Source: Candidatus Zymogenus saltonus | GTDB lineage: Bacteria > Desulfobacterota > Zymogenia > Zymogenales > Zymogenaceae | DNA length: 64,000 bases | Assembly: GCA_016929395.1 (NCBI GenBank) | Contig: JAFGIX010000057.1 | Location: 1 to 64,000, forward strand | Reading direction: 5' to 3' | In this document: in pieces, positions 4,681 to 12,502 of the stretch | Numbering within the stretch: position 1 is the stretch's first letter | Layout: every line of letters begins with the position of its first letter | The notes under the pieces: generated by a model | What the model saw: only the letters and a program-made list of their open reading frames with translations | What the model was told of the DNA's origin: nothing | The model's database searches: none | Made by a program: the position numbers and the translations under genes

Positions 4681-5061
4681 GTGTCGTCATTGGGAAACGA
4701 AGTGAAAAAGAAGATATTTCTGCCGCAGGAGAAACTTGAAGCCTGGGTAAAAGATGGAAGGGTATCTTTTTCGGATAATGTTATCACCACCCTTACCGGC
4801 AACAGACTGAAATACAAGCTTGTCCCTGCGTACAAGTTTATCAAGCTGACATCGGGGGATGTGGACGAGCCGAAGCTATTAGGCTCCGTAAAGACCAAGG
4901 ACGACATCAAGCACCTGAAACCGGACATCTTTTTGGATTCCATCATTATAGGGGACATAGCCTACGAGGTGGAGATGGGATACATAGGCAATCTGAAGAT
5001 AGATGACGAGGAGATGGACGATATAAAACTCTTAAGTAAATATATCCTTGAAAATTTTTGA
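4681..5061 (+). CDS. conserved-looking hypothetical protein upstream of miaB
   Basis: I do not recognise this 126-residue product. It starts at GTG 4681 (SSLGNEVKKKIFLP) without a clear ribosome-binding site and ends 9 bases before miaB. It has no signal peptide or membrane segment. The composition is charged, with a basic N-terminal third and an acidic C-terminal tail (IDDEEMDDIKLLSKYI). The even codon use and tight spacing to miaB support a real gene. Cotranscription with miaB is likely; a function in tRNA modification would be speculation. Confidence 0.65.
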   Translation: MSSLGNEVKKKIFLPQEKLEAWVKDGRVSFSDNVITTLTGNRLKYKLVPAYKFIKLTSGDVDEPKLLGSVKTKDDIKHLKPDIFLDSIIIGDIAYEVEMGYIGNLKIDDEEMDDIKLLSKYILENF

Positions 5062-5070
5062 ATAGATCAA

Positions 5071-6435
5071 ATGTCTGCCGACGATCTACATAAATGGGGG
5101 AAAACCGAAAGGGGGCCAAGGAGCGTTTATTTCAGGACGTTCGGGTGTCAAATGAACGTTCACGACAGCGAGCGGATGAGGGGGCTTCTCTCCCGGGACG
5201 GCATTACTGCGGTTGACTCCCCGCATGACGCCGACATCATCATTATCAACACGTGCAGCGTCAGGGAAAAGCCGGAGGAGAAGACTTACAGCGAGATCGG
5301 GAGGTACAGGAGACTCAAGGAGAAAAAGGAGGGTCTTGTAATCGGGGTGACCGGCTGCGTTGCCCAGCAGAAGGGGGAAGAGATCGTAAGGCGCTTTCCC
5401 TACGTGGATCTCGTTTTGGGCACCAAAAACGTCGGGGCGATATCCAATATCATATCGGAGATCGTATCCGGGAAAAAGCCGATAGTGAAGACCGAATTTC
5501 ACGACAACAATTGTATTGAGCCATTTGAGCCGTTCCCCAGAGACCCCGATAATTACACGGCCTTTGTCACGGTCATCCAGGGATGCAATAACTTTTGCTC
5601 CTACTGCATCGTCCCCTATGTCAGGGGAAGGGAGATGTCGAGGCCGTCAACCGACATCACAGACGAGATAAAATCCCTGATAGATACAGGTATTGTAGAG
5701 ATAACGCTCCTGGGCCAGAACGTGAACTCCTATAGCGACCCTAAAAACGGCCTCCGATTTCCGGAGCTTATAAGAAAAATTTCCAAGATCGACGGCATCT
5801 ACAGGATCAGGTTTGTGACGTCGCACCCAAAGGATATGTCCGACGATCTTATCTCCTGTTTCAAGGAGATCGAGACGCTCTCGTCCCATATTCATCTTCC
5901 GGTTCAGTCCGGATCGAACAAGATAATCAAAATGATGAACAGGGGATACACGGTCGAGGACTATATCGATAAAATCGAGAGGCTAAGATCGGTCAGGAGC
6001 GACCTTGCCGTCACCACCGATATAATCGTCGGCTTTCCGGGCGAGGATGTTTCCGACTTTGAAGGGACGTTATCGGTGATGGAGAAGGTCGAGTTCGACA
6101 ATGCATTTTCCTTCAAATACTCCGAGAGGCCGGGAACGGCCGCCGCAAGGCTCGAGGACGACGTCAGTCCAAACGAAAAATCCAGGAGGCTTGAAGTAGT
6201 ACAGGATCTTCAGAAAAGGCTCACCATGAAATCCAATTTAAAAAATATAGATTCCATATACGACGTTTTGGCAACGGGCCTGAGCATCAAAGACCCCGAA
6301 GAGATAACAGGAAGATCAGACCAGAACAAAATAGTCAACTTCAAGGGAACGGAAAGCGCAATCGGCTCTGTTGTTCCTGTGAAAATAAAAAAGGCTTTCA
6401 ATAACTCCCTCTGGGGGGAGGTTATTCAGCCATAA
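5071..6435 (+). CDS. miaB: tRNA-2-methylthio-N6-dimethylallyladenosine synthase MiaB
   Basis: Radical SAM methylthiotransferase of 454 residues that adds the methylthio group to i6A37 of tRNAs reading UNN codons. The N-terminal UPF0004 domain contains the MiaB hallmark FGCQMN, with auxiliary-cluster cysteines C26, C62 and C96. The radical SAM motif is C172-x3-C176-x2-C179 (GCNNFCSYC). The C-terminal part, after about residue 385, fits a TRAM domain. GCQMN separates MiaB from MtaB and RimO, and an MtaB paralogue is encoded at 17.4-18.7 kb. The gene is followed 20 bases later by the bifunctional nuclease gene. Confidence 0.95.
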   Translation: MSADDLHKWGKTERGPRSVYFRTFGCQMNVHDSERMRGLLSRDGITAVDSPHDADIIIINTCSVREKPEEKTYSEIGRYRRLKEKKEGLVIGVTGCVAQQKGEEIVRRFPYVDLVLGTKNVGAISNIISEIVSGKKPIVKTEFHDNNCIEPFEPFPRDPDNYTAFVTVIQGCNNFCSYCIVPYVRGREMSRPSTDITDEIKSLIDTGIVEITLLGQNVNSYSDPKNGLRFPELIRKISKIDGIYRIRFVTSHPKDMSDDLISCFKEIETLSSHIHLPVQSGSNKIIKMMNRGYTVEDYIDKIERLRSVRSDLAVTTDIIVGFPGEDVSDFEGTLSVMEKVEFDNAFSFKYSERPGTAAARLEDDVSPNEKSRRLEVVQDLQKRLTMKSNLKNIDSIYDVLATGLSIKDPEEITGRSDQNKIVNFKGTESAIGSVVPVKIKKAFNNSLWGEVIQP

Positions 6436-6455
6436 TCCTTTTATTGGAGAAAAAA

Positions 6456-6956
6456 ATGGCAAAAGAAATGAAGATAAGCGGTCTGGCAATCGATCCCGTA
6501 TCCAGCGTTCCTATTGTCATACTCAAAGACAAAGAGGAAAAAAGCACGGTCCCGATATGGATTGGGCTATTGGAAGCAAGCGCCATTGCAACCGTTCTTG
6601 AAGATATCAAGTTTTCACGTCCCATGACCCACGACCTTTTTAAGAACGTTATGAATACACTGGACGTCAAGATAGAAAAGATCGTGGTAAACGACCTCAA
6701 AGACAACACCTACTACGCGAAGATATATCTATCCTCCGGGGGTAAGGGCTTTGAGATAGACTCAAGGCCGAGCGACGCCATAGCGATAGCGCTGAGGACC
6801 GAAGCGAAGATATTCATGGAGGAATCGGTAATAGAGAAATCGAGGAAGATCGACCTCACAAGGCCGGAAGACCTTCACAGCGAAGAGGCGAAGAAGAAAT
6901 GGGCGGAGATACTCGACAATCTCGATCCCGATGACTTCGGCAAGTACAAGATGTGA
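6456..6956 (+). CDS. bifunctional nuclease family protein (DUF151)
   Basis: Cytoplasmic protein of 166 residues with the BFN/DUF151 fold. The conserved core reads VPIWIGLLEASAIA, then LSSGGKGFEIDSRPSDAIAI, which carries the family signature SRPSDAIA. A C-terminal extension resembling a UVR-type helical hairpin (EEAKKKWAEILDNLDPDDFG) follows. Homologues have been reported as nucleases acting on DNA and RNA; here that is by family only. I prefer ATG 6456 because GGAG (6446-6449) lies 6 bases upstream; an in-frame TTG at 6444 has no such site. It shares its strand and close spacing with miaB. Confidence 0.88.
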   Translation: MAKEMKISGLAIDPVSSVPIVILKDKEEKSTVPIWIGLLEASAIATVLEDIKFSRPMTHDLFKNVMNTLDVKIEKIVVNDLKDNTYYAKIYLSSGGKGFEIDSRPSDAIAIALRTEAKIFMEESVIEKSRKIDLTRPEDLHSEEAKKKWAEILDNLDPDDFGKYKM

Positions 6957-7517
6957 TTTGGCCCTGGGGGATTGAGGTGGGGCAGGGAGTTGCAATAACA
7001 GCGGGTGGGAGTAGGGGGTAATAAAGGCGGGGGTGGGTGGATTTTATTATAAGGCGTCGGGAATCACAGGGACGGAGAAGATGATGGGGGAAAGAGGTGA
7101 CGGGGTTGGCTTAAGTGATGGGAATGTTGGGGTGCATAGGGTGAAGGGGGCGGTGCAAGTGGTGGGGATTATGGGGTGCAGGGGATGAAAGGGACGGTGT
7201 AAGTGATTGAGATGGTGGGGTGACGGGAATGGCGGAGGTGGTGTGAATAATGGGGGGGGGGAGGGGTGGGGTAATGGAAATGGCGGGGGGGGTGGAGATA
7301 ACAGGGAGGCAGGGACAGGAATGGTGAGGAGTGGATGGGGGTGATTGGCTTTCATTGGGGAGTTGAGCGTAAGGATTTCCAGAATTCTTAACCCTGAACA
7401 TTTTGGGGCGGATATTTGCCGCCGGTCCTTAAAGGACGGTGAAAATTTTCAAATATCTTGATATAAAAACTTAGAGACATTTTTAAAGTACTTTTTTTCT
7501 ATTTCGTACAAAAAAGC
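6957..7517 (+). repeat. G-rich spacer with degenerate ~43-bp tandem repeat
   Basis: No gene is visible in this 560-base gap. From about 7086 to 7290 the + strand is strongly G-rich and C-poor and falls into degenerate units starting at about 7086, 7129, 7173, 7217 and 7252. Units 2 and 3 (44 bases each, beginning GGGGTGCA) are clearly related to each other. Later units are shorter and end in a run of nine or more G. Many GGG tracts give G-quadruplex potential on the mRNA-like strand downstream of the nuclease stop. At 7440-7451 there is a perfect palindrome, TGAAAATTTTCA, upstream of the next gene. Confidence 0.7.
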
Positions 7518-8567
7518 GTGTCAAAAAAGAGATACCTCTGGATCGCAGTTATAGCATACGCGATCCTTATTTTTATAGGCTCGTCAATTCCGGGAAGCCG
7601 GATAAAGGCCGGCCCTCCCGGCTTTGACAAGCTGATACACCTGTTCGAGTATCTCATTCTATCCGCGCTCCTGTTTGCCGCCCTCGCATCGGGGCGTGAA
7701 AGAGGCAGCTTTAAAAACTACCTTCTCCTCTCTTTCCTGCTCGCCTCACTCTACGGCGTATCGGACGAGATTCATCAGCTTTTCGTCAAAGGGAGGTTCT
7801 TCGAGCCGCTTGATATCTTTATGGATTCGGTCGGCTCCCTTGTTGGCTCATACTGGGGTTTCAAGGTTTCGACGAGAAAGAAAGACCCATGGGACATGGA
7901 CTACCTGAAGGCGAAACAGGTTCAGGAGGAGCTTAAAAAGAAGCTCGTTCTCGAGGGGGACTTAAAAAAGGTCAAGCTTGTCGCCGGGGCGGACGTATCG
8001 TTTGATACCAAATCGAAGAAAGGAAAAGACCAGATATTCGCCGCGGTAGTCGTTATGGACATAGATACATTCGAGGTCGTCGATTCCGCCCACCATTCCA
8101 TGAAGATAGATTTTCCATACATTCCGGGCCTCCTCTCTTTCAGGGAGGGGCCGGCCATAGTCAGGGCCTTCGAGAAGCTGAAGATCCTACCCCAGGCCGT
8201 AATATTCGACGGACAGGGGATCGCACACCAGAGGAGATTCGGCCTCGCATCCCACATGGGGGTGGTCTTGGGCATTCCCTCGGTCGGCTGCGCAAAGACA
8301 AGGCTCGTTGGCAAATACGGCGAGGTCGGCCTTAAGAAGGGGAGCAAGACGCAACTCACCCAAGACGGCGAACTTTTGGGTTACGTGGTAAGGACGAAGA
8401 GAGGCGTAAAGCCACTCTTCGTCTCACCGGGAAACCTCATAAGCCGCGAGGGAGCTGTGGATCTGGTCCTCTCCTCCGTGGGGAAGTACAGGCTCCCGGA
8501 GCCGATAAGGGCGGCCCACAACCTTGCAAACAGGTTGAGGAGAGAGTTCAAGGAGGGCGAAAAATGA
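7518..8567 (+). CDS. VanZ-like membrane domain fused to endonuclease V
   Basis: Protein of 349 residues with two parts. Residues about 5-115 form a VanZ-like membrane domain: GSSIPG, FDKLIHLFEYLILSALLF, and DEIHQLFVKGRFFEPLDI followed by FMDSVGS. Residues about 126-349 are a complete endonuclease V, which nicks DNA near deoxyinosine. It has VAGADVS (D159), YIPGLLSFREGP (Y201, E210), DGQGIAHQRRFG (D231), GCAKTRL (K260) and AAHNLANRL (H334), matching the catalytic positions known in the family. Endonuclease V is normally a soluble stand-alone protein, so this would tether a repair nuclease to the inner membrane. The start is GTG 7518 with no strong ribosome-binding site. An internal ATG before MDYLKAKQVQ could yield a free nuclease. 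It overlaps the next gene by 4 bases (ATGA). Confidence 0.9.
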   Translation: MSKKRYLWIAVIAYAILIFIGSSIPGSRIKAGPPGFDKLIHLFEYLILSALLFAALASGRERGSFKNYLLLSFLLASLYGVSDEIHQLFVKGRFFEPLDIFMDSVGSLVGSYWGFKVSTRKKDPWDMDYLKAKQVQEELKKKLVLEGDLKKVKLVAGADVSFDTKSKKGKDQIFAAVVVMDIDTFEVVDSAHHSMKIDFPYIPGLLSFREGPAIVRAFEKLKILPQAVIFDGQGIAHQRRFGLASHMGVVLGIPSVGCAKTRLVGKYGEVGLKKGSKTQLTQDGELLGYVVRTKRGVKPLFVSPGNLISREGAVDLVLSSVGKYRLPEPIRAAHNLANRLRREFKEGEK

Positions 8568-10822
8568 AGGGATTTTTTGAGATTATGAAGAAGGCGAGAT
8601 ATTTCATTCTAATATTTCTCTCCTTGATCCTTTTTGTTGTCTTCCAGTTCTCCTGCGTAAAGAGGATCTCCCGCTTTCAGCCGGGCGATGAGTTTCTGTA
8701 CGTCCTGTCGCTCATGTCGGAGAAGAAGTACGACGCGCTCCTCATTGAAGTCGACGGGATGAACCTCTCGTCCCTGAAGGAGCCCCAAGCCAACAAGATA
8801 GCGTACATGGCGGCTATGGCCGCTATGAAACAGGGCAAGCTCGACACCGCCGAGATATACCTCAAGTATTGTCTCGCAAATTATCGGGAGATGGAGGACT
8901 ACGCTGTCTACAACTTGTCGATACTCTATTCCACCACGGGAAGCTACGAGCAGGCCTTGAAGCTTGGGGAGAGATTGCTAAACGAACATCCCGACAGCGT
9001 CTGGAACAGAGAGATGACCGTAAAGATCGCCGACTATCTGGTCGGCATCGGCAAGCCCGAAAAGGCTCTTGAAATCTACGACGACTTCCTCAAATCTAAC
9101 AAAAAATCGAAACAGTACCCCATAGTCCTCTTTAAAAAGGGGAAGACCCTCGATTCGATGGGGAAAATGGAGGAGGCAAAGCTCATCTACAAGTCGGTGT
9201 GGCTGGAATATCCGGCCGACGAAACAGCAGGAATGGCCTTTATTGCCCTGACGAAGATAGGCGGGCTTTCCAACATAACCGAGGGTGAGCTGAAAAGGAG
9301 GATAGACACCCTATACGATGCCAACTGCTACAACAGCGCGCTTAACGCCATAACCGAGATGCCGGCGCTTTTAGGGACCGCAAAGGAGAGGCTCAAGACA
9401 AGAAGCGAGCTGGAGTTTATCAGGGCCAAGTGTTACTACGGAAAGAGGGACTACAGAAAGGCGTCCGAGATTCTAAACAGCCTTGTAAAGAACAACAAAG
9501 ACCTCCCCCCGAAGCTCCCGTATAACCTCCTCCTCTTCTGGCAGGCAAAGACGTACGACAAGATGGACAAGGACGGCCTTGCAATATCGGCCTACCTCAA
9601 GATATACAACTCCGGCCCCAGAAATACCCTTGCCGACGACGCCCTCTATCTCGCCGCCAGGACGTATGAAGAGATAAAGGACTACGACAATGCGCTCCTC
9701 TATTACAAGAAATACCTGAAGAGCTATTCCCACAGCGGGAGGATAAAAGAAGTACTCTGGTACATAGGGTGGATATATTACGTCAAGGGGGACTACAAGG
9801 CCGCGGAAGCCTATTTTGATCGAATGACAAACAGCTACAAGGGCAAGAGCGAGTATCCCCAGTATCTCTACTGGAAGGCGAGGGCCCTTGAAGAGCAGTT
9901 CAAAGTAGAAGAGGCGATGGCTATCTACCGGACGCTGATCGATAAGTACAGCTACACCTACTATAACTACCAGGCGATAGAGAGGCTCAAGGGCATGGGC
10001 ATTTCCGTGACGATCAGGCCGAGGAGCGACAAATTTGATCAGAACTTCTGGTCGCCGGGCCTCATGCGCTACACCAAGTTTACATCGGACGAGAGGATAA
10101 CATCCCACCTCAAGAAGTCGCTGGAGCTGATGTCGATGAACATGAACGACCTGGCGTCGCTGGAGCTGGATCTGATTGTCGAAAGGTGCGTTGGAGACCC
10201 GGAGCTTTTGATCGAGGTGGCGAGGCTTCTCAGGTATTCCGGGGATTACTACACCCCTGTTGTGATAGCGAACAGGTATTTCAAAAACTATCTGGATGAA
10301 TATATACCGGGAGAAAACGACCTTTACTGGCAGATGAAGTACCCCGAGGCGTACAAGGGGGAGGTGGTAAAACTCTGCAAGGAAAACGAGATAGAGCCTG
10401 CCTTCATATACTCCGTAATGCGGGCAGAGAGCCTCTTCCAGCCGGGGGTCTACTCCTGGGCCGGGGCCGTTGGACTGATGCAGATCATGCCCGCCACCGG
10501 AAGGGAGATAGCAGAGGGCATCAGCCATGAGGATTTCGAGGTGAAGGACCTCCTCGATCACAGGACGAACCTCAAGTTCGGCGTTTACTACCTAAAGGGG
10601 CTTATGAGAGAGTTCGGCGACGACAAGGTCCTCGCCCTTTGCGGATACAATGCCGGCCCCGGAAATGCAAGGAAGTGGAAGAAAAACGCCGACCCTAAGA
10701 TGGAGATGGACGAGTTCATAGAGAACATTCCCTACTCGGAGACGAGGGCGTACGTCAAGAGAATCCTGCAATTTTACAGTATATACAGGTCCCTGTATGA
10801 AGGCGAAAATATTATCGAATAG
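8564..10822 (+). CDS. Slt70-type soluble lytic transglycosylase with TPR-like repeats
   Basis: Envelope protein of 752 residues that cleaves peptidoglycan glycan strands to 1,6-anhydro products. An N-terminal membrane or signal segment (about 10-28, ending FQFSC) may be a signal anchor or an atypical lipoprotein signal. It is followed by a long array of helical TPR/Slt superhelix repeats (about 70-590). The C-terminal SLT domain begins with MRAESLFQPGVYS, whose E622 is the catalytic acid. Further SLT motifs are GAVGLMQIMPATG and LCGYNAGPGNARKW. The ATG overlaps the stop of the VanZ-endonuclease V gene, and the 3' end overlaps pyrK by 26 bases, so the set is translationally coupled. Confidence 0.92.
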   Translation: MKGFFEIMKKARYFILIFLSLILFVVFQFSCVKRISRFQPGDEFLYVLSLMSEKKYDALLIEVDGMNLSSLKEPQANKIAYMAAMAAMKQGKLDTAEIYLKYCLANYREMEDYAVYNLSILYSTTGSYEQALKLGERLLNEHPDSVWNREMTVKIADYLVGIGKPEKALEIYDDFLKSNKKSKQYPIVLFKKGKTLDSMGKMEEAKLIYKSVWLEYPADETAGMAFIALTKIGGLSNITEGELKRRIDTLYDANCYNSALNAITEMPALLGTAKERLKTRSELEFIRAKCYYGKRDYRKASEILNSLVKNNKDLPPKLPYNLLLFWQAKTYDKMDKDGLAISAYLKIYNSGPRNTLADDALYLAARTYEEIKDYDNALLYYKKYLKSYSHSGRIKEVLWYIGWIYYVKGDYKAAEAYFDRMTNSYKGKSEYPQYLYWKARALEEQFKVEEAMAIYRTLIDKYSYTYYNYQAIERLKGMGISVTIRPRSDKFDQNFWSPGLMRYTKFTSDERITSHLKKSLELMSMNMNDLASLELDLIVERCVGDPELLIEVARLLRYSGDYYTPVVIANRYFKNYLDEYIPGENDLYWQMKYPEAYKGEVVKLCKENEIEPAFIYSVMRAESLFQPGVYSWAGAVGLMQIMPATGREIAEGISHEDFEVKDLLDHRTNLKFGVYYLKGLMREFGDDKVLALCGYNAGPGNARKWKKNADPKMEMDEFIENIPYSETRAYVKRILQFYSIYRSLYEGENIIE

Positions 10823-11573
10823 GGAGGCCGCCCCGGGCTACTTCAGACTCGCCGTCTCGGCTACGGAGGCGCTTCTCAGGGGAAGGCCGGGGCAGTTTGT
10901 CATGGTCAGGGGCGAAGGGTGGGAGACAGATCCCCTCCTGAGGAGGCCCTTTTCGATATACCGATTCCGAAAGGGTATGGAAGCCGTTGAGATACTCTAC
11001 CGAGCGGTGGGGAGGGGAACGAGACTCCTCTCCCAAATGAAGGCGGGGGATGCAATTGACATCCTTGGGCCCCTCGGAAACGGCTTTCCCGATCTGCCGG
11101 AGGGGAGAAGGTCGCTTCTTGTGGCAGGGGGGGCCGGCGTCGCCCCACTGATCTCCGTTGCGGAGGCGAAGGGCGGATCGGCGCGCCTCATCATGGGAGG
11201 CAAGACCAAAGACGATATATCGTATGTCTTCGAGGACGAAAGGGAGCTTGGAATAGACGTGACTTACGCCACGGAGGACGGGAGCTTCGGAAAGATGGGG
11301 ACTTCCATTTCCGCCATGAAGGAGGAGGCCTCCCCCGGCGATACGGTCTTTGCCTGCGGGCCGTTAAAGATGTTGAGGGAGGTTGAGAGACTCTCCAGAG
11401 AAATGGGCTTTACCTCCTACGTCTCCTACGAGGAGAGGATGGGGTGCGGAACGGGACTCTGCTTCGGGTGCGTTGTCATGGGGGCCGGCGGGGAGTATCA
11501 GCGCGTATGCAAGGACGGCCCGGTCTTTGACGTCAACGAGCTTTCCTGGAAGGATATTGAGGATATTGATTAG
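10797..11573 (+). CDS. pyrK: dihydroorotate dehydrogenase electron-transfer subunit PyrK
   Basis: FAD and [2Fe-2S] subunit of the type 1B dihydroorotate dehydrogenase, 258 residues, passing electrons from dihydroorotate to NAD+. The FAD-binding motif RRPFSIY is at residues 49-55, the NAD-binding glycine-rich segment VAGGAGVAPLIS at about 109-120, and CGPLKML at about 187-193. The cluster ligands are C217, C222, C225 (CGTGLCFGC) and C238. The start lies inside the transglycosylase gene. pyrD follows 11 bases downstream, confirming a PyrK/PyrD pair rather than another ferredoxin reductase. Confidence 0.95.
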   Translation: MKAKILSNREAAPGYFRLAVSATEALLRGRPGQFVMVRGEGWETDPLLRRPFSIYRFRKGMEAVEILYRAVGRGTRLLSQMKAGDAIDILGPLGNGFPDLPEGRRSLLVAGGAGVAPLISVAEAKGGSARLIMGGKTKDDISYVFEDERELGIDVTYATEDGSFGKMGTSISAMKEEASPGDTVFACGPLKMLREVERLSREMGFTSYVSYEERMGCGTGLCFGCVVMGAGGEYQRVCKDGPVFDVNELSWKDIEDID

Positions 11574-11584
11574 GTGGCAAATCA

Positions 11585-12502
11585 ATGGTTGACCTTTCAG
11601 TAAACATGTTCGGGATCGATTTTAAAAACCCGGTCTTTGCCGCGTCCGGGACGGCGGGCTATGGCATCGAGCTTGTTCACTATATCGACCTCGAAAAAAT
11701 CGGCGCATTGATAACAAAGGGGGTATCTCCAAAGCCTAAGTCGGGAAATCCCCAACCGAGGATTATAGAGACTCCTTCCGGGATCTTAAACTCCATAGGC
11801 CTCCAGAACATCGGCGTGAAAAGGCTCATAGATGAAGTCCTGCCGGAGCTTGAAAAATATGATACGAGTGTTATAGTAAACATTTTCGGCGACGACATCG
11901 ACGGCTACATTAATGTAGCGGGCGCCTTTCTCAACGAGGATCGGGTGGACGCTCTGGAGGTCAACCTCTCCTGCCCGAACGTCAAGGAGGGGGGAATAGC
12001 CTTCGGGAGGGACCCGAAGATCTCGGCCGAGATAACCTCCGCCGTCGTCGAGGCGTCTCAAAAGCCTGTGATCGCAAAATTGACGCCCAACGTGACCGAC
12101 ATAGCACCGATAGCCAAGGCGGTGGAGGAGGCGGGGGCAGCGGCGGTCTCCGTCGTAAACACCCTTTTGGGAATGGCCGTTGACGTCGAAACCCGAAGGC
12201 CCTATTTCAAGAACGTGACGGCGGGACTTTCGGGCCCCGCTATAAGGCCGGTGGCACTGAGGTTCGTCTGGGAAACGGCGAGGGCGGTTAAGATTCCGGT
12301 CATCGGGATCGGCGGAATAACATCCGGAAAGGACGCCCTGGAGTTCATCATGGCCGGGGCAGCGGCCGTTCAGGTGGGAAGCGCAAACCTGGTAGACCCG
12401 GGGGTCATATCGAATGTGATCGACGAAATAGAAGATTACTGTACTAAAAATGGAATCTCTGACCTGAAGGAGATCAGAGGGATCATAAAAGAGGAGATTT
12501 GA
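11585..12502 (+). CDS. pyrD: dihydroorotate dehydrogenase (type 1B catalytic subunit)
   Basis: FMN enzyme of 305 residues oxidising dihydroorotate to orotate, step four of pyrimidine synthesis. Recognisable elements are NPVFAASGTAGYG at the N terminus, the substrate loop NSIGLQNIGV, and VNLSCPNV with catalytic C130. A serine would be found there in class 2 enzymes, so Cys fits class 1. The FMN-phosphate region contains GIGGITSGKDALEF. The adjacent pyrK makes it type 1B (NAD-linked), in keeping with growth without a respiratory quinone requirement for this step. Confidence 0.96.
   Translation: MVDLSVNMFGIDFKNPVFAASGTAGYGIELVHYIDLEKIGALITKGVSPKPKSGNPQPRIIETPSGILNSIGLQNIGVKRLIDEVLPELEKYDTSVIVNIFGDDIDGYINVAGAFLNEDRVDALEVNLSCPNVKEGGIAFGRDPKISAEITSAVVEASQKPVIAKLTPNVTDIAPIAKAVEEAGAAAVSVVNTLLGMAVDVETRRPYFKNVTAGLSGPAIRPVALRFVWETARAVKIPVIGIGGITSGKDALEFIMAGAAAVQVGSANLVDPGVISNVIDEIEDYCTKNGISDLKEIRGIIKEEI

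Follow-up and report, generated by a model that had tools for sequence, protein, structure and literature searches.

Endonuclease V (EndoV) is known in a natural two-domain fusion from Ferroplasma acidarmanus, whose AGTendoV protein joins an alkyltransferase to the nuclease (PMC10779285). VanZ-type lipocone domains, whose suggested substrates are lipid-linked precursors of the wall and of polysaccharides, have several reported cytoplasmic fusion partners of their own, including cNMP-binding, FHA, RHH, HTH, and RDD domains (PMC12419801); the term endonuclease V is absent from that survey. Here, we describe an open frame of Candidatus Zymogenus—a genus of the Candidatus Zymogenaceae (NCBI taxonomy)—in which a VanZ domain precedes EndoV. 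AGTendoV is a precedent for EndoV within a two-domain protein, yet both its halves are DNA-repair enzymes and it carries no membrane domain, whereas the Zymogenus fusion has the VanZ helices. Both halves belong to known families; their combination, seen once, was not found in the literature searched, where the papers naming both families were, by title and abstract, not relevant.

Domain composition and predicted topology of the fused frame

Within the window (the whole 64,000-nucleotide stretch of Candidatus Zymogenus saltonus DNA that was analysed), the gene forms a single uninterrupted reading frame of 349 codons with no internal stop, and divides as follows:

7518..8567, + strand: fused VanZ–EndoV open reading frame, 349 aa, GTG start, with Pfam and NCBIfam matches to both halves
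7518..7880, + strand: VanZ-type (lipocone) domain, residues 1–121, with up to four membrane helices (Pfam, NCBIfam, hydropathy, a low-confidence model, and motifs compared with PMC12419801)
7884..8567, + strand: EndoV domain, residues 123–349, with catalytic D159, E210, D231, K260, and H334 and wedge Y201 (Pfam, 2w35 alignment, structure model)

The EndoV half scores 241.5 bits against Endonuclease_5 (PF04493; residues 138–334, E 7.7e-72, cut-off 23.4) in Pfam and 242.2 against the deoxyribonuclease V equivalog NF008629 (cut-off 230) in NCBIfam. The claim of an earlier note on this DNA that all catalytic positions are kept proved right, numbering included: D159, E210, D231, K260, and H334 align with D43, E89, D110, K139, and H214 of Thermotoga maritima EndoV (2w35), as counted on the printed alignment, and the wedge residue Y201—the tyrosine of PYxPG—aligns with T. 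maritima Y80. The catalytic D/E/D, K, and H as well as the wedge tyrosine are invariant in the EndoV family alignment. In the model, a complete EndoV domain begins at about residue 125, with a pLDDT near 97 and a TM-score of ~0.9 (by target length) to the solved EndoV structures 3hd0 and 2w36; in the fold alignment, identity to T. maritima EndoV is ~41%. In its full-length domain, complete catalytic residues, and fold, this half is like endonuclease V (nfi; PF04493) elsewhere, and it would presumably cut DNA (or RNA) close to deaminated adenine as an ordinary EndoV does, at the second phosphodiester 3′ of inosine. The difference lies in its setting, since nearly all members found stand alone, whereas the fused one follows membrane helices and a linker of ~9 residues.

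The VanZ half clears its cut-offs as well (PF04892 at residues 31–111, E 1.6e-10, 42.1 bits against a curated cut-off of 30.1; vanZ_1 in NCBIfam, 62.1 against 20), with profile matches that span helices 2–4 only. With both domains above their cut-offs and no stop between them, the reading of VanZ and EndoV as joined in one open frame is borne out. Four helices appear in the model (residues 3–23, 36–57, 65–89, and 96–119), at low confidence, from a shallow alignment and with VanZ pLDDT mostly below 70; hydropathy gives three clear segments in this half, and the fourth helix scores weakly. The motifs D37-K38-xx-H41 (DKLIH), E84xxQ87, and D99xxxD103 (DIFMD) are kept, at positions described for VanZ-type lipocone domains. 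The protein thereby resembles the VanZ family (PF04892; VanZ-2-like lipocone) in xKxxH, ExxQ, and DxxxD, and may do so in the four helices of the low-confidence model, but departs from the VanZ-2 motif RKxxH in having DKxxH, with D replacing R.

We infer that VanZ–EndoV is translated as one chain, which the VanZ helices would insert into and anchor in the inner membrane. Both termini are predicted to be cytoplasmic from the positive charges at the N-terminus, in the loop joining helices 2 and 3, and past helix 4. EndoV would then sit at the inner membrane face on its ~9-residue tether, with DNA or RNA in the vicinity still within its range, and the VanZ half would probably have lipid-linked wall or polysaccharide precursors as its substrates, the role put forward for the lipocone superfamily (PMC12419801). 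Each half most likely functions on its own; we found no evidence of cooperation between their activities. The genome of the window is a draft of 3.76 Mb in 92 contigs, 99.6% complete, and a search of all of it detected no second copy of VanZ or EndoV. Should the fusion be real and made as one chain, the product would be an EndoV bound to the membrane and, as this is the only EndoV copy detected in the genome, EndoV repair of deaminated adenine would have to be carried out from there.

The junction between the two halves

Two short features at the boundary bear on whether the frame is truly continuous and translated as such:

7881..7895, + strand: junction and linker, KDPWD; G001 has 11 more bases nearby, including a VanZ stop TAA (comparison with the same-genus relative)
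7896..7898, + strand: in-frame internal ATG (M127), a weak candidate for an independent start (Shine-Dalgarno scoring)

In the nearest relative, G001 (likewise Candidatus Zymogenus), vanZ and endoV are adjacent in different frames, and vanZ ends in TAA; at the same place the window has 11 bases fewer, plus substitutions, and reads through. Between these two genomes, dN/dS is ~0.10 and ~0.08 for the two halves, with synonymous sites near saturation, and this codon comparison shows purifying constraint on both VanZ and EndoV.

The different frames in G001 raise the question of whether a missing or extra base at 7870–7900, introduced by sequencing or assembly, makes two adjacent or overlapping genes look fused. 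Such a shift at the junction would put a vanZ stop a few bases past 7896 and an endoV ATG at 7896, and the window genome is, with its 92 contigs, a draft. However, the window differs from G001 by 11 bases and substitutions, which is more than one base. Moreover, W125-D126, which match the WD of EndoV in the relatives G002 and G003, can be read only from the VanZ frame; the one ATG nearby (7896) comes after them, so that it is the VanZ frame that supplies the usual EndoV N-terminus. G001 is itself a poor referee: its contig title states 6x coverage, its endoV can begin at neither ATG nor GTG (the options are a TTG within vanZ, or ATA/ATT where the genes meet), a single A added to its AAAATAA junction would make the frame continuous, and its slt carries a one-base frameshift ~1.3 kb downstream (L031:4200-4330), either real or an error of the low-coverage contig. 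For these reasons, G001 cannot settle fused versus split, and either of two histories fits: an originally split pair became joined in the window through a deletion that removed the stop, or the fusion came first and the G001 sequence is one base out. The earlier note had held that separate genes in relatives combined with an error at the junction would undo the fusion; the separate genes are there, but the error we regard as unlikely.

Alternatively, one transcript might give two products, with EndoV mostly soluble through an internal start (ATG 7896 or 7821) or proteolysis of the linker. Translation from the in-frame ATG at 7896 would keep every catalytic residue, and one might expect an enzyme that is the only EndoV serving a chromosome to be soluble. 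Shine-Dalgarno pairing, however, amounts to −1.2 kcal/mol at 7896 (vs −11.7 at the downstream slt start) and −2.2 kcal/mol at 7821, both weaker than the regional mean of −4.2 over all ATG/GTG sites, and starting at M127 would drop the W-D found in related EndoVs. The internal ATG before DYLKAKQV that the earlier note had named as a start to be checked exists and is in frame, yet has almost no Shine-Dalgarno pairing, and we consider two products quite unlikely. The GTG at 7518, where VanZ starts, shows no such pairing either.

Gene strings flanking the fused frame

The neighbourhood of the fused gene falls into two strings, each of which recurs in relatives:

4681..6956, + strand: upstream string hyp-miaB-bfn, in G003 followed directly by a stand-alone vanZ (comparison with relatives)
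8564..12502, + strand: downstream string slt-pyrK-pyrD, in G002 and G003 preceded by a stand-alone endoV (comparison with relatives)

The window and G001 share the order hyp-miaB-bfn-vanZ-endoV-slt-pyrK-pyrD. In G003, a member of the same family, hyp-miaB-bfn-vanZ and endoV-slt-pyrK-pyrD lie ~47 kb apart on one contig, and G002 likewise has the endoV-slt-pyrK-pyrD string. As the two strings stand end to end in Zymogenus, the last gene of one comes to lie beside the first gene of the other. Gene order thus suggests that the strings were joined in the Zymogenus lineage; breakage in the other lineages would be less simple.

On this basis, we think it probable, though by no means certain, that the frame is a lineage-specific in-frame fusion that arose from the joining of miaB-bfn-vanZ and endoV-slt-pyrK-pyrD in Candidatus Zymogenus: the strings would have met end to end, the vanZ and endoV frames would have joined, and the outcome would be a membrane-anchored, otherwise ordinary EndoV with mostly independent halves. 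Counting against this explanation are the occurrence of the fused frame in one genome only, the missing Shine-Dalgarno sequence at the GTG, the low-confidence VanZ model, and the weak fourth helix. The idea of a novel membrane-tethered nuclease accordingly survives in part. Such a protein is what the frame predicts (up to four helices, the short linker, and the EndoV model), and its domain combination was not found in the literature searched; little, however, points to a dedicated function. The joining of two gene strings at this locus offers a readable example of how a new domain combination can be made.

The slt gene at 8564 overlaps the stop of the fused gene (ATGA), and its product, a TPR + SLT lytic transglycosylase, agrees with the earlier description of the coupled downstream gene as a cell-wall hydrolase. 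The same endoV/slt overlap is present in G003, which makes the hydrolase an old neighbour of endoV that is uninformative on VanZ; and since endoV-slt-pyrK-pyrD exists in relatives without VanZ, having slt as a neighbour does not argue for a cell-wall function of the fused protein. Upstream, bfn and vanZ are spaced by ~10 bp in G003. In the window, bfn is separated from the fused gene by 560 bp, which contain an imperfect tandem repeat (7113-7222; period 44, 2.5 copies); no consensus match to a promoter or terminator was found between bfn and vanZ in the window.

Occurrence of VanZ and EndoV in other genomes

The searches covered 395 genomes of the window's phylum with a fused query, 296 genomes from the phylum to which L061 belongs (see below) with a concatenated one, and 82 and 285 genomes of two further phyla with a profile. 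The search for the same two-domain architecture and its taxonomic spread, proposed as a check of the fusion, yielded no second fused VanZ–EndoV frame among the matches listed from these ~1,050 other genomes in four phyla. As the lists for the 395-genome, the 296-genome, and the 285-genome searches ended or were thresholded at weak matches, distant VanZ copies could escape them, and the flanks of ~100 distinct EndoV loci were therefore scanned with a VanZ profile built here. Among the loci so covered, VanZ adjoined EndoV only in the window, G001, L061 (genome G395), and L113 (G668); where both families were listed, they were usually on different contigs or far apart. No relative was recovered from genome contigs when the entire fusion served as one query; an alignment query gave 53 endonuclease V loci, none of them fused to VanZ.

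Several candidates were rejected. Long open frames around EndoV elsewhere are, by look, mostly unrelated high-GC read-through 5′ of EndoV, and those scanned with the VanZ profile were negative beyond the loci named above. Matches reaching the VanZ positions with stops inside came from L153 and L154, which lack a VanZ profile match, and from G678, where a different small gene lies upstream and there is thus no VanZ; by eye, this small gene 5′ of endoV (L128) resembles PQ-loop/SemiSWEET membrane proteins.

The two Nitrospirota loci (L061 is labelled Nitrospirae) provide an arrangement comparable to that in Zymogenus. There, vanZ lies directly 5′ of endoV as a separate gene (L061:2516-3608 and L132:4305-5415). 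In these pairs (L061/L138 and L113/L132), order and strand are as in Zymogenus and EndoV follows VanZ immediately, but the genes occupy two frames and have neighbours of their own, an HD-GYP regulator and an M23 peptidase. As the neighbourhoods of L061 and L113 share the HD-GYP gene and a divergent M23-type peptidase (both named by sequence inspection), the adjacency was counted as one independent origin. The endoV at L061:2889 has no in-frame ATG, GTG, or TTG until about residue 55; most likely it starts at an ATT codon that overlaps the vanZ stop and has a strong Shine-Dalgarno pairing of −9.5 kcal/mol.

This second adjacency counts against the fusion by string joining that we favour, in that pure accident would not predict it. 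Since no fewer than two lineages, Zymogenus on the one hand and the two Nitrospirota genomes with their common HD-GYP/M23-peptidase context on the other, have vanZ directly 5′ of endoV, the fused protein might instead be a selected membrane-tethered inosine nuclease whose halves cooperate, for instance on nucleic acid at the membrane. Yet the ~1,050 genomes gave no other fused frame among the matches listed, EndoV and VanZ are usually far apart or on different contigs where both are listed, the defence library gave no match and no mobile-element record contained both parts, and string joining accounts for the adjacency in Zymogenus; we judge selection for such a nuclease very unlikely. Similarly doubtful is the broader notion that VanZ and EndoV form a recurrent functional pair, with a lipocone domain anchoring or regulating an inosine-directed nuclease, of which Zymogenus would have the fused and Nitrospirota the unfused form. 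As to the suggestion that the protein surveys incoming or membrane-associated nucleic acid, nothing found speaks for it: a defence-family library gave no match for the fused protein, phages, plasmids, and viral contigs held EndoV alone or nothing and never both parts together, and the matches listed contained no other fused frame.

A different EndoV fusion came to light in the same searches. Following the VanZ-profile scan, 17 EndoV loci were added that were inspected by eye only, and five of them encode EndoV with a C-terminal HhH-GPD glycosylase-type (endonuclease III-like) domain in one frame (L160, L162, L163, L164, and L169, from G421, G402, G430, G445, and G412). All five genomes belong to the Nitrospirota-phylum draw, and Pfam confirmed both domains in the two of two proteins run. 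This fusion is better supported than VanZ–EndoV; it is found in several genomes and combines two repair functions. Repeat-like peptides, ALTPCPSPVGRGV and CHSERSEES among them, occur in some of its linkers.
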